From a virus: DNA of 30,923 nucleotides. The stretch lies in the IMG/VR virus record IMGVR_UViG_3300017788_000109, positions 1 through 30,923 of that record; one strand, given 5' to 3'. A program made the translations under genes and the position numbers. Of the stretch, positions 8,052 through 11,898 are shown one piece after another (position 1 is the first letter of the stretch; each line of letters begins with the position of its first letter). The notes under the pieces were generated by a model that saw only the letters and a list, made by a program, of their open reading frames with translations, did not search any database and was not told where the DNA came from.

Positions 8052-8414
8052 ATGAACACCACATTGAGACCCATATGCTCTAGCTGCAATGCCAACAGAC
8101 CCGTGGCTGTCAATTGTCACAAGGCCGATAAAATATACTATCGCAAACAGTGCGACAACTGCATACGCATTGGAAAGAGGCTAGCACCCATTCCACCAAA
8201 ATGGTACAAGTCAGGATATAGGAAAAAATCGCAGTGCGAGCGCTGCGGGTTCAAAGCAGAAGTACCAGAGCAACAGCTACTGGTATATCACGTGGATGGT
8301 GATCTAAGCAACAACGATCGCAGCAATCTTAAAACTGTGTGTCTAAACTGCCGACCAATGGTGCAGAAATCAAGACTGCCCTGGAAGGCGGCTGATCTCG
8401 TACCAGATTTTTGA
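8052..8414 (+). CDS. Small zinc-finger / HNH-like phage protein
   Basis: The product has 120 residues from an ATG at 8052; the open frame continues upstream, but that part is antisense to the sheath gene. Two Cys-pair sets are visible. C9-x2-C12 with C34-x2-C37 could bind one zinc. C62-x2-C65 with C97-x2-C100 would frame an HNH-type core, VYHVDGDLSNNDRSNLKTVC, with H80, D82, N87 and N88. I recall small proteins of this kind ('YK.GY..K..C..CGF.A....L.V.H.DG...NN...NL.T.C.NC') as common in marine phages; some HNH proteins of phages act in packaging, others are homing enzymes. No ribosome binding site is evident. It is convergent with the dNMP kinase gene and overlaps it by 86 bases. Catalytic activity is not proven by the motif alone. 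Confidence 0.8.
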   Translation: MNTTLRPICSSCNANRPVAVNCHKADKIYYRKQCDNCIRIGKRLAPIPPKWYKSGYRKKSQCERCGFKAEVPEQQLLVYHVDGDLSNNDRSNLKTVCLNCRPMVQKSRLPWKAADLVPDF

Positions 8415-9009
8415 GATATTCGTACAGCTCATCTATGCGACCGTTGTTATCGATCACTGCATCAAACTTGGTGCCCGCCCATGATGTTTCGCTGGGATGT
8501 ATGCGATTATCTGCCAACCACTGCCGAGCAGCAGCATCTCCTTGATTGGCCTGTTCGGCTACCGAGTACCAACTGGGAATAGCACCTCGCTGTATCCATA
8601 CAATTTTGCCGCCTTGGGCTCGTATGGCTTTGACTTCGTTGGGAAAACGAACGTCACTGATCACTGTATGGTCGGAACGACGAGCCAATCTTGATTCCAA
8701 AGCAGCGATCCAGATGTCATCGTGAAAGTGATTGCGTAACACATCTGTGCCCCAGTATTGCAAGATCCAGCGCGGTGTTAGATGTGGCATGCCTAGCCTA
8801 GCAGCCCACCATTCGTCTACTTGTTCGCGCCAGGCCCTGGCTTCCGGGGTACGCCCTTCTATCAGTTCTCGGTCCCAACCAAACACAGCACTTACCGCAT
8901 CTTTCAGCGTGGCAGCAAAACTGTCCCGTCGAAATCCATGGAATCCTACCAGGTAGTCTGCTGCGGTATCTTTGCCGCTGCCAATCAGTCCGCATATTCC
9001 TATGATCAT
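8329..9009 (-). CDS. gp1: Deoxynucleoside monophosphate kinase (gp1-like)
   Basis: The product has 226 residues, close to T4 gp1 (241). It would phosphorylate dNMPs to dNDPs for phage DNA synthesis, in the cytoplasm. The P-loop GLIGSGKDT is at residues 7-15 and is followed by the family helix AADYLV. SFAATLKDAVSAVFGW (30-45) is the usual lid/NMP-binding start. ILQYWGTDVLRNHFHDDIWI (82-101) and SDVRFPNEVKAIRAQGGKIV (118-137) match the conserved 'Q..GTD..R......W' and 'D.R...E......GG..I.V' motifs. HPSE is at 171-174. About 25 residues after NLVRD exceed the usual family end and are encoded within the overlap with the HNH gene. The start is ATG directly after a hairpin and T-run; AGAGG in the hairpin arm is the only good ribosome binding site. 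A TTGACA box lies upstream. Confidence 0.9.
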   Translation of the reverse strand: MIIGICGLIGSGKDTAADYLVGFHGFRRDSFAATLKDAVSAVFGWDRELIEGRTPEARAWREQVDEWWAARLGMPHLTPRWILQYWGTDVLRNHFHDDIWIAALESRLARRSDHTVISDVRFPNEVKAIRAQGGKIVWIQRGAIPSWYSVAEQANQGDAAARQWLADNRIHPSETSWAGTKFDAVIDNNGRIDELYEYLKNLVRDQPPSRAVLISAPLVGSLDTQF

Positions 9010-9033
9010 AAAAAAGCCTCTGGTTATAGAGGC
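9010..9033 (-). terminator. Terminator-like hairpin that contains the dNMP kinase ribosome binding site
   Basis: On the minus strand GCCTCT and AGAGGC pair around a 6-base loop and are followed directly by six T residues and the ATG of the dNMP kinase. It has the form of a rho-independent terminator for the gp13 transcript, and its 3' arm also carries the AGAGG ribosome binding site, so it may act on both transcription and translation. Confidence 0.7.
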
Positions 9034-9034
9034 T

Positions 9035-9064
9035 AGTTTACGATAAAAACATAGCGTTTGTCAA
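9035..9064 (-). promoter_or_regulatory. Putative sigma70-type promoter for dNMP kinase
   Basis: TTGACA (9059-9064, minus strand) is separated by 18 bases from TAAACT (9035-9040), which matches the -10 consensus at four of six positions. The TTGACA contains the stop codon of the upstream gene. Initiation about seven bases downstream would fall at the end of the 5' arm of the following hairpin. Confidence 0.45.
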
Positions 9065-9441
9065 ACCCCGTATTTGTTCTTTTTTCTGGCTGCCACAGGA
9101 CTATGATGATGCGTGTCTGGCAGTTCCATGCTGTTCAAATTGTTTTTGTTAAGATCTTTATAGTTGGCACCTACCATTTTGTAGCTCTGCTTGAGCATTT
9201 CGGCTTCTTCTTGGGTGTAAGGATGAGCTGTGTGTTTTTTGCCATAGAAGCTTTTGGGGTCCATGTCAATTAGCTGACCTGTGCCGTCTGCACAAGCCAA
9301 AGCCAGTCCCAGACGATAATGGGTGTAATCGGTGTTGGTCCTTTCACCATCGCTAAAGATATGCAACCCGGTACTGGCTTCTTTGTATCTGTCAGGAATC
9401 TGGCCGCTGCGCACTTCATTTATTATTTCTTTGATTTTCAT
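9061..9441 (-). CDS. Conserved small phage protein of unknown function
   Basis: The product has 126 residues and begins MKIKEIINEVRSGQIPDRYK. The central part, YTHYRLGLALACADGTGQLI, DMDPKSFYGKKHTAHPYTQE and EEAEMLKQSYKMVGANYKDL, resembles a family I recall from marine T4-like phages with the pattern 'YRL...A..DG.....D..S..G....A.PYT.EE..M......VG'. The C-terminus is polar and ends DTHHHSPVAARKKNKYGV, rich in His, Lys and Arg. No catalytic motif or membrane segment is visible. The ATG overlaps the stop of gp13 by one base (TAATG), so it is probably translated by re-initiation from gp13. It may be a minor neck or head protein; nothing in the sequence proves this. Confidence 0.75.
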   Translation of the reverse strand: MKIKEIINEVRSGQIPDRYKEASTGLHIFSDGERTNTDYTHYRLGLALACADGTGQLIDMDPKSFYGKKHTAHPYTQEEAEMLKQSYKMVGANYKDLNKNNLNSMELPDTHHHSPVAARKKNKYGV

Positions 9442-10574
9442 TATCCAATTACCCAGGTATACGGTTGGCTGCCGTCGATAAAACGTTTGAGTTCATCTTC
9501 TAACATTTCTATTTCTGCTTTGGCCTCTTGTTTGAGTGCTGCGCCGTTGAGCTGTGTTCCGCCTTGAGGACCAGCTATAGTAGCAAATTTTTCACGTGCC
9601 TGGCCTAGCATTTCCTTGCAAAGCGCCAGAGCATAATCTTGCACCCAAGGATATATCCTGTCATCGTTTAATATCATGCTATCAGGCTTTTTATTATAGA
9701 TCCAGAGCAACACCGTTTCTGCAGGATCTTCATTCCCTGGAGCATATATGTTAGTGCGATTCAATTCAAATCCTGTTACACTGGCCGCGCCCAGTATGGA
9801 TTTGGCCTCAACTGTGAACAAGGTGCCCCCATTGCTTACGGTCAATACCTCATAGGTATTGTTGTATCCAGTAACGGGACAATTTATAATGCCCACTGTA
9901 CTGCCCACAGTGACCACGTCCCAAGGATCATACATTTCAAAAGTAATAGTGCTTCCCACAGCAGTTCCGGTGGCTGTAAGAGTTTTCATGCGCTTGTAAT
10001 TGTTTCCGGTGTTAGGCATTTTGCGCACGATGGTCAGTTTCTTGGTCACAGGATTCCAAGTGAAATTCATGTAACCACCAAACATGCGCATGGCCAGTTC
10101 TTGATACTGGCTGAACAGTTCATAGTTGACCAGGCCGCCCACACGACCGGCTACCAACATGTAGGTGTTTAGGTATCCTGATGCAAAAGGTTCAAATTGG
10201 CTAGCGGTGGTACCCGTGACTGATCCTATGCCTCGTCTGAACACTTGACGTACTGTTTGGATTTCAGCGGGCAGGATGTATTCTTGTGTTTCAGGTAGCA
10301 GTTCCAAGAAAGCATAGCTTTCTTCTTCGCTGTTGGCGGCACGCTGGCGGTATCGTCCCAGTGCTTTGTCTATAGCAGTTTTGTAGTGTGCTGGATCAAG
10401 TTCCACGTCCACCATTCCATCGCCCAGACGAAAACGTATGTAATCTTCTATGTCTTTGCGTTTAGTTGACGTGGAGGTGAGTGTGGAATCGTCATAGGCT
10501 ATAGGACCCGGTCCACCCAGACTATCTGCCGAGATAGCTTGCCTGCCGTTTAATCCTGTTTTAAGTGTGGCCAT
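9441..10574 (-). CDS. gp13: Neck protein gp13-like
   Basis: The product has 377 residues (T4 gp13 has 309). The N-terminal helical part DIEDYIRFRLGDGMVDVELD, then HYKTAIDKALGRYRQRAANS and ELLPETQEYILPAEIQTVRQ (about 41-110), is the opening of gp13-type neck proteins that I recall from cyanophages ('I..YCL..LG.P....v....y...id.AL..Y'). The C-terminal helix set with WVQDYALALCKEMLGQAREK (about 310-329), GPQGGTQLNGAALKQEAKAE (335-354) and LEDELKRF is also typical. Residues about 198-272 form an inserted beta module (VGSTVGIINCPVTGYNNTYE then TLFTVEAKS) resembling modules in the large structural protein at the right of the window. gp13 with gp14 and gp15 seals the head and joins it to the tail. 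The ribosome binding site GGGGA lies in a hairpin arm. Confidence 0.75.
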   Translation of the reverse strand: MATLKTGLNGRQAISADSLGGPGPIAYDDSTLTSTSTKRKDIEDYIRFRLGDGMVDVELDPAHYKTAIDKALGRYRQRAANSEEESYAFLELLPETQEYILPAEIQTVRQVFRRGIGSVTGTTASQFEPFASGYLNTYMLVAGRVGGLVNYELFSQYQELAMRMFGGYMNFTWNPVTKKLTIVRKMPNTGNNYKRMKTLTATGTAVGSTITFEMYDPWDVVTVGSTVGIINCPVTGYNNTYEVLTVSNGGTLFTVEAKSILGAASVTGFELNRTNIYAPGNEDPAETVLLWIYNKKPDSMILNDDRIYPWVQDYALALCKEMLGQAREKFATIAGPQGGTQLNGAALKQEAKAEIEMLEDELKRFIDGSQPYTWVIG

Positions 10575-10609
10575 AAAAAATCCCCGTATGCTGTATTTAG
10601 CACACAGGG
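10575..10609 (-). terminator. Terminator-like hairpin overlapping gp13 ribosome binding site
   Basis: On the minus strand CCCTGTGTGC (10609-10600) pairs with GCATACGGGG (10591-10582) with two G-U pairs, around the 8-base loop TAAATACA. It is followed by A, six T residues and the gp13 ATG. It closes the 10626-11837 transcript. The GGGGA ribosome binding site of gp13 lies in and just after the 3' arm, and the loop holds a late promoter-like element. Confidence 0.75.
10594..10601 (-). promoter_or_regulatory. Late promoter-like motif GCTAAATA inside hairpin loop (gp13)
   Basis: GCTAAATA lies 19 bases before the gp13 ATG, at the junction of the 5' arm and loop of the hairpin. A transcript starting six or seven bases further on would lack the 5' arm and leave GGGGA unpaired. 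Confidence 0.55.
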
Positions 10610-10625
10610 ACGGTGTAAGGTCTGC

Positions 10626-11837
10626 TTAGGCCACACGCAACAAAACTATATCCTTGTTCAATCTACCATTAAGACGTGTTTCTGTAGCCTTTACGCTTTC
10701 TAGGAACTTGCGCAACTGGACTTTGCTGGATTTCATAAACTCTTTTAACTGTTGTTCGGGCTTGCGTAACGTTTTGCTCACACTCTTGGTTTCATCAAAC
10801 CCAACAATAGTGGTTCCTTTCACTCCCAAGGTACCAGCGTACTGATCGGGGACGTACTTGCCTAATTTGCGAGTTTTGGCATTGTACACCCAAAGCTCTT
10901 GAGAGCCAATGATGTCCACTGGATTCACGCTGACCAGCTTGAGCTCGATATTCTCTTTGCAGTACTTTACTCTGCCGACTAATTTTTCCTTGCTGGGACT
11001 CTTTTTTACCCGGGCTTTCTTGGTAGCTTTCTTCACTCCGCGATACTGTTCAACAGCCTCTAACAGTTTGTCTATCCAGGCATAACGGGCTTTGAAGTCA
11101 ACAGCCTTGAGGTGTTTGTAACCTTCTGTGATCTGATCATCTGTCTTGGCCTGTGCCAATTCTAGCTCGGCCTTTCGATCTGCATACACTTGCACAATCT
11201 TGCCCAGCTGTGCCTGGGGTACATTCTGCGCTGTTAGGAAATCGTAAAACTTTACATCTGCCAGCTCATCGTAATAACCTTCCAGTTCGCCGATGGTGGC
11301 TGATGTTTTTTCATTCAGGCGATCCTGGATGGTGGGCACATACACAGCTTTCTTTGTCTGTTCTTCTGTAACTTCTGGTTCACCTTCGTTGTAAACATCA
11401 TACTTCACGCATACATCTCTCACAGCAGTTTCGAGATAGTCCAATGCACGAGGTTTGAGTGGCATGCCTGCCCTATGCGCGGCGATGAGGCTGCAGGCAG
11501 TGATTGGAACCCAGCGGCTCTTGATCACCTTGCTGAGATCTTGCTTGGTTATTTTGAAGTTAGTCTGTTCACCTAACCATTTGCAAAATTCTGGCTTGAG
11601 ATCTTTGACTGTGAAATGATAATTGTAGTAGTAAAAACTGCGGCGCAGATGATGATCGAATTCGTCGTCGGGCATGGCCAACGCACGTTCGGTGTCCCAT
11701 TTGGGTTCGGTACCTGTGTATTTTTCGTCCGCCAAGTGTATGCGCCGAATCACGGGCTTTTTCTTGGCTACTTTGATGCCTGTAATGATTTTGGTTGCTT
11801 TTTTAGCAACAGGCTTGCTTTTGCTGGCTGTGGCCAT
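10626..11837 (-). CDS. Lysine-rich conserved phage protein of unknown function
   Basis: The product has 403 residues. The first ~35 are very basic and low-complexity (MATASKSKPVAKKATKIITG then VAKKKPVIRR), and a second Lys-rich patch lies near residue 270-285 (KKATKKARVKKSPSKEK). Between them is a helical region (about 50-260). The C-terminal ~120 residues contain ELKLVSVNPVDIIGSQELWV, YNAKTRKLGKYVPDQYAGTL and LRKPEQQLKEFMKSSKVQLR, which match a widespread marine T4-like phage family I remember with the pattern 'VYNTK.RKL..Y......L.VKGT.I..FDE..S..KTLRKP...L'. Its function is unknown to me; the basic patches suggest nucleic acid binding. It has a perfect TTGACA-N17-TATAAT promoter and AAGGAGC before the ATG, and a terminator after it, so it looks like a separately controlled, perhaps early, gene. 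Confidence 0.8.
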   Translation of the reverse strand: MATASKSKPVAKKATKIITGIKVAKKKPVIRRIHLADEKYTGTEPKWDTERALAMPDDEFDHHLRRSFYYYNYHFTVKDLKPEFCKWLGEQTNFKITKQDLSKVIKSRWVPITACSLIAAHRAGMPLKPRALDYLETAVRDVCVKYDVYNEGEPEVTEEQTKKAVYVPTIQDRLNEKTSATIGELEGYYDELADVKFYDFLTAQNVPQAQLGKIVQVYADRKAELELAQAKTDDQITEGYKHLKAVDFKARYAWIDKLLEAVEQYRGVKKATKKARVKKSPSKEKLVGRVKYCKENIELKLVSVNPVDIIGSQELWVYNAKTRKLGKYVPDQYAGTLGVKGTTIVGFDETKSVSKTLRKPEQQLKEFMKSSKVQLRKFLESVKATETRLNGRLNKDIVLLRVA

Positions 11838-11869: not shown

Positions 11870-11898
11870 ATTATACAATAAAATGGATTTGGTGTCAA
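11870..11898 (-). promoter_or_regulatory. Perfect consensus sigma70 promoter
   Basis: TTGACA (11893-11898, minus strand), exactly 17 bases, then TATAAT (11870-11875). Initiation would be near 11863, giving a leader of about 25 bases with AAGGAGC before the ATG at 11837. The TTGACA contains the TGA stop of the upstream 89-residue gene. Confidence 0.88.

Follow-up and report, generated by a model that had tools for sequence, protein, structure and literature searches.

The window analysed here, meaning the whole stretch of DNA under study, is a 30.9-kb IMG/VR virus record from a phage of the T4 superfamily that is kin to jumbo phages. A nucleotide search among phages returned no match for the window, protein searches led to distant jumbo phages, and no relatives of its gp13 were found in GTDB genomes. 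The genes and elements around gp13 are as follows.

11870 to 11898, minus strand: sigma70-type promoter of the 403-aa gene, TTGACA-17-TATAAT (12/12), conserved in relatives
10626 to 11837, minus strand: 403-aa gene (PHROG 11903), upstream of gp13 and kept before gp13 in relatives
10580 to 10611, minus strand: RNA hairpin of 13 bp with a 6-nt loop, from folding and from covariation in relatives
10611 to 10599, minus strand: 5' arm of the hairpin, GTCCCTGTGTGCT
10598 to 10593, minus strand: loop, AAATAC
10592 to 10580, minus strand: 3' arm, AGCATACGGGGAT
10594 to 10600, minus strand: late promoter box CTAAATA inside the hairpin; the same box precedes other late genes
10587 to 10588, minus strand: predicted late transcription start in the 3' arm, placed by T4 spacing
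10581 to 10585, minus strand: Shine-Dalgarno sequence GGGGA, within the 3' arm
10575 to 10580, minus strand: T6 run adjoining the ATG; stem and T6 together resemble an intrinsic terminator
10574 to 10572, minus strand: ATG of gp13
9441 to 10574, minus strand: gp13-like head-tail adaptor (neck protein; Ad2), 377 aa (PHROG 211, E 1.6e-31)
between gp13 and the next gene, minus strand: 126-aa open reading frame
8329 to 9009, minus strand: deoxynucleoside monophosphate kinase (dNMP kinase), 226 aa (PHROG 139, E 1.3e-53)
7948 to 4646, minus strand: tail sheath
4567 to 3926, minus strand: tail tube
27067, 16907, 10600, 7985, 4593, 3870 and 1107, minus strand, and 12205, plus strand: [AC]TAAATA sites

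The window also holds a repetitive 3371-aa open reading frame (27037 to 16922, minus strand), probably a fibre-like virion protein.

The gap between the 403-aa gene and gp13 reads GTCCCTGTGTGCT-AAATAC-AGCATACGGGGAT-TTTTT-ATG on the minus strand. Its 13-pair stem, with some G-U pairs and six G-C pairs, is followed directly on the 3' side by the T-run. The computed fold has an energy of −21.7 kcal/mol (z −4.8), which none of 200 shuffles equalled, and the hairpin ranks first among 32 terminator-like sites in the first 20 kb of the window. An Rfam search with the hairpin gave only a sub-threshold chance match, to NsiR1. The original prediction had described a 10-bp stem with a T-run at the gp13 ATG and a late promoter element in the loop. 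The hairpin and the T-run are real and the box does lie within the hairpin, but the stem has 13 bp and the box runs from the upper end of the 5' arm into the loop. The prediction had also placed GGGGA in the 3' arm, where it is indeed found and is paired in the long-transcript fold, and a late start inside that arm at 10588/10587, the position that T4 box spacing gives as well. The hairpin is thus confirmed, and the case for it is stronger than first claimed.

Evidence that the box is a late-type promoter came from several directions. Late promoters are of the type TATAAATA in T4 and CTAAATA in Aeh1, with the T4 late box at −13 to −6 relative to the start (PMC1524935), and an ATAAATA motif has been reported to precede structural genes of CBB and GAP32 (PMC5259590). 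Most late-type starts in the window have [AC]TAAATA shortly before them, and the TAAATA core is invariant across aligned gp13 leaders. A gp55-like late sigma factor (PHROG 12791/234) is encoded in 7/9 of the related records searched. The recurrence of the box, its invariant core and the sigma factor in relatives together bear out the predicted promoter type. Elsewhere in the window (3901 to 3862, minus strand), a terminator, AGGCCCGGATTTTTCCGGGCTTTTTTTT, stands directly before a late box, the two side by side without overlap.

The 403-aa gene has a perfect and widely kept sigma70-type promoter, so early messages should run into gp13. In most relatives this promoter is near-consensus and lies upstream of gp13 by 1.2-1.8 kb, an interval that usually contains no late box. 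The conserved promoter is consistent with the earlier proposal that transcripts arrive at gp13 from the upstream gene. The clearest relative without a gp13 hairpin, L059, is also without a strong (≥10/12) sigma70 promoter upstream. A strict rule, that an early promoter upstream means a lock (a stem that buries the ribosome site), was considered and rejected: it fails for PA5oct, which has an 11/12 early promoter upstream, yet no lock. The association is therefore not universal.

The search for gp13 gave 79 related viral loci, with 57 distinct leaders among them. Nearly all 79 have a hairpin before the gp13 ATG, with TAAATA kept in position in the loop or upper stem and with AGGA, GGGA or GGGGA in the 3' arm, while the arm sequences differ widely. 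The module is shared by the named jumbo phages GAP32, CBB, PBECO4, BF and Munch. In some lineages (L026, L032, L057 and L058), the 5' arm falls within the coding sequence of the upstream gene, whose stop codon overlaps the late box. Covariation was assessed in 25 divergent gp13 leaders, aligned by MAFFT on sequence alone, where 89.5% of cells are paired and compensatory changes on both sides occur in 10/11 pairs. Compensatory cells number 61, against 18.9 in shuffles, and the covariation score is 0.608, against 0.234 for shuffles and at most 0.20 for slid structures. Mapped on the gp13 protein tree, pair-type changes number at least 47 in total, many of them separate. By this measure, the base pairing of the stem is kept by selection. 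Arms that neither persisted nor covaried had been named beforehand as the outcome that would count against the original prediction; what emerged was strong conservation together with covariation. Departures from Watson-Crick pairing in the stem comprise 36 G-U and 4 A-C, counts that are not phylogenetically independent, and the excess of G-U speaks for selection acting on the sense RNA rather than on a DNA site.

Computed accessibility suggests what the pairing is for. Two RNAs were compared for each leader, a long transcript and a short one begun at the predicted late start and thus lacking the 5' arm. Across the 57 distinct leaders, the median unpaired probability of the ribosome site is 0.001 in the long RNA versus 0.61 in the short one; for GGGGA in the window, the values are 0.002 and 0.59. 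The site is unpaired with a probability below 0.1 (that is, more than 90% paired) in the long transcript for 51/57 leaders, and when the shuffle is confined to the sequence upstream of the box, the mean unpaired probability is 0.31. There is some variation among relatives: the stem of the L022/L025/L028 group does not quite reach the ribosome site, which is 0.59-0.71 unpaired, and in some leaders accessibility in the short transcript is moderate (0.3-0.6). Fold, 5'-arm shuffles and covariation all favour the earlier suggestion that long transcripts would hide GGGGA.

The gp13 leaders also stand out among the leaders of this phage group. Their median folding energy is −20.8 kcal/mol, versus −6.0 kcal/mol for other late leaders, and 49/57 fold better than all 100 shuffles. 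The number of base pairs enclosing the box in the minimum-free-energy structure proved not to be discriminating, as other late genes also form long weak helices; the analysis relied instead on energy, ribosome-site accessibility and 5'-arm shuffles. In seven long contigs, gp13 leaders top the late leaders by stability, alongside a GIY-YIG-like gene in G003, and in most long contigs no late-promoter lock is stronger than that of gp13. The G003 gene (L096:7995) is a 220-aa GIY-YIG-like open reading frame (MKYKKDYYGYVYEWI) with a strong hairpin joining late promoter and ribosome site, like those of the T4 I-Tev/Seg endonucleases. A scan of 3127 start-codon contexts (~0.9 Mb of the phage group) for strong stems that hide the ribosome site gave 8 matches, all of them at gp13 or dNMP kinase, and none in three shuffles per context. 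As positive controls, wider scans recovered T4 e, gene 49 and I-TevII.

These data make it very probable that the gp13 hairpin is a stage-specific translation switch built around a late promoter, of the T4 e/soc/I-Tev type, silent early and on late. Early in infection, host RNA polymerase would transcribe the 403-aa gene from its strong sigma70 promoter, and RNA continuing into gp13 would fold the hairpin, bury the Shine-Dalgarno sequence and leave gp13 untranslated. In the window, the T-run may also end many of these run-in RNAs. At the late stage, the phage gp55-like sigma factor would use the TAAATA box inside the hairpin; the RNA would then begin in the 3' arm without the 5' arm, the lock could not fold, and gp13 would be translated. 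The start site, the timing, the translational repression and the termination are what we infer from sequence.

The competing explanation that survives best, although it is unlikely, is that the hairpin serves mainly as the intrinsic terminator of the upstream gene, with the overlap of ribosome site and late box saving space and having no translational role. The strong, G+C-rich stem followed by T6, at the head of the terminator list, fits this explanation, as does a T-run after the stem in the closest kin of the window and before the gp13 ATG in most named jumbo phages (GAP32, CBB, BF, XaC1 and PBECO4 among those with it). Across relatives, however, the U-run is not conserved: a T-rich tail (≥6 T in the last 9 nt) is present in only 16/57 distinct leaders, whereas nearly all retain the stem and the box and have the ribosome site buried, and termination does not need a Shine-Dalgarno sequence as its 3' arm. 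The terminator in the original prediction thus holds up well for the window and several named jumbo phages, but it does not extend to most relatives. Because most relatives that keep hairpin and promoter have no T-run, it would be the lock, not termination, that selection has preserved. Termination is plausibly an addition to a conserved core of lock and promoter.

A protein could act on the same RNA. The hairpin might be a translational operator bound by a RegA- or gp43-like protein, or an RNase III-like processing site, rather than a passive lock; T4 has such operators at initiation regions (PMC3014915), and a bound protein is compatible with all of the observations made here. We consider this very improbable, given that neither loop nor arms hold conserved sequence besides the promoter box and the Shine-Dalgarno sequence, and that the stem alone is, by computation, enough to bury the ribosome site. 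Least credible of all is a role at the DNA level, with the inverted repeat serving as an operator or cruciform to which some regulator of the late promoter binds, since the arms have been rewritten almost freely while pairing holds, unlike a protein site, and the G-U over A-C asymmetry is an RNA signature, even though the promoter box sits at the centre of the repeat and I-TevI represses its own late promoter via an overlapping operator (PMC2988022).

Alongside the proposed late switch at gp13, the window holds a mirror element 1.5 kb downstream, where a terminator-like hairpin hides the ribosome site of dNMP kinase.

9035 to 9064, minus strand: sigma70-type promoter before dNMP kinase, TTGACA-18-TAAACT
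9015 to 9034, minus strand: dNMP kinase hairpin AGCCTCT-ATAACC-AGAGGCT, followed by a T-run and the ATG, with covariation in relatives
9021 to 9017, minus strand: Shine-Dalgarno sequence AGAGG, in the 3' arm of that hairpin

RNA from this promoter is predicted to start at 9028, where 5' arm and loop of that hairpin adjoin. The element recurs in most relatives, with T-rich tails in 26/33, and its arms covary (93.5% of cells paired, double changes in 5/7 pairs); it is not present in the L066/L069/L072/L078 group. An early-type dNMP kinase gene behind late genes thus appears, from its sequence, to be insulated in the manner of gp13. GAP32-like phages have the tail sheath directly behind dNMP kinase, and there the sheath gene carries a separate lock (CCTCCAATAAATA...TTTTTGGAGG). 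In the tail sheath leaders of named jumbo phages (L133, L135, L137 and L139-L146), CCTCCAATAAATA ... TTTTTGGAGGATT precedes the ATG as a second late-promoter lock. Two further genes, of 177 and 173 aa (GAP32, L158 near 17013 and L147 near 16304), have a late box within a hairpin that conceals the ribosome site, with a T-rich stretch after it. A broader proposal, which we put forward tentatively and at slightly less than even chances, is that in jumbo T4-like phages early and late genes alternate along one strand, each junction being insulated by some 35-40 bases that combine terminator, promoter and lock. The promoter would be late before late genes that follow early ones (gp13, often tail sheath) and sigma70-type before early genes that follow late ones (dNMP kinase), and each gene would be translated only from the RNA of its own promoter.

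The closest parallels come from T4. On long early RNA, the ribosome site of T4 e is held in a helix, and RNAs from the late promoters just before the gene do not include the 5' strand and are translated efficiently (PMC3014915). The locks of e, soc and gene 49 are, like that of gp13, hairpins that join a late promoter to a ribosome binding site. They control lysis (lysozyme), accessory capsid and recombination genes, whereas the gene here encodes the neck protein gp13; unlike them, the gp13 lock has a terminator-like T-run in some lineages and is kept across very divergent jumbo phages. I-TevI, I-TevII and I-TevIII, segB and Aeh1 mobE likewise combine a late promoter with a ribosome-site hairpin behind early or middle transcripts (PMC2988022). 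These homing-endonuclease locks share the gp13 arrangement but control mobile genes, while gp13 is one of the phage's own structural genes. In T4 itself, a hairpin precedes the gp13 ribosome site, but it leaves the site unburied and contains no late box. The gp13 box is of the same type as the boxes of Aeh1 (CTAAATA; PMC1524935) and of CBB and GAP32 (ATAAATA; PMC5259590), and the available portions of these promoter and terminator reports mention no hairpin lock at gp13 or sheath.

The early-type element has relatives as well. In our scan, the T4 early genes alc, regB, modB, alt.-3 and nrdC.8 (regions L168, L171, L167 and L165) showed a stem hiding the ribosome site beside an early-type −35 sequence, GTTTAC. 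These stems resemble the dNMP kinase element but are without a T-run before the ATG, and because of them an early-type lock is not without precedent. The literature searched yielded the T4 locks, and nothing on a gp13 lock or on a composite of terminator, promoter and lock. The principle, then, is known from T4; as far as we found, the novelty here lies in the gene that it controls, in how widely and deeply it is conserved, in its being joined to a terminator-like T-run, and in the mirror element. On broad comparative evidence, a regulatory device described for a few T4 genes is thereby extended to a virion gene across a wide and largely uncultured group of giant phages, and it offers a rule, legible from sequence, by which genes in such genomes can be classed as early or late in expression. 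The mirror pair of gp13 and dNMP kinase gives rise to a specific insulation hypothesis that can be tested in the culturable phages GAP32, CBB and PBECO4.
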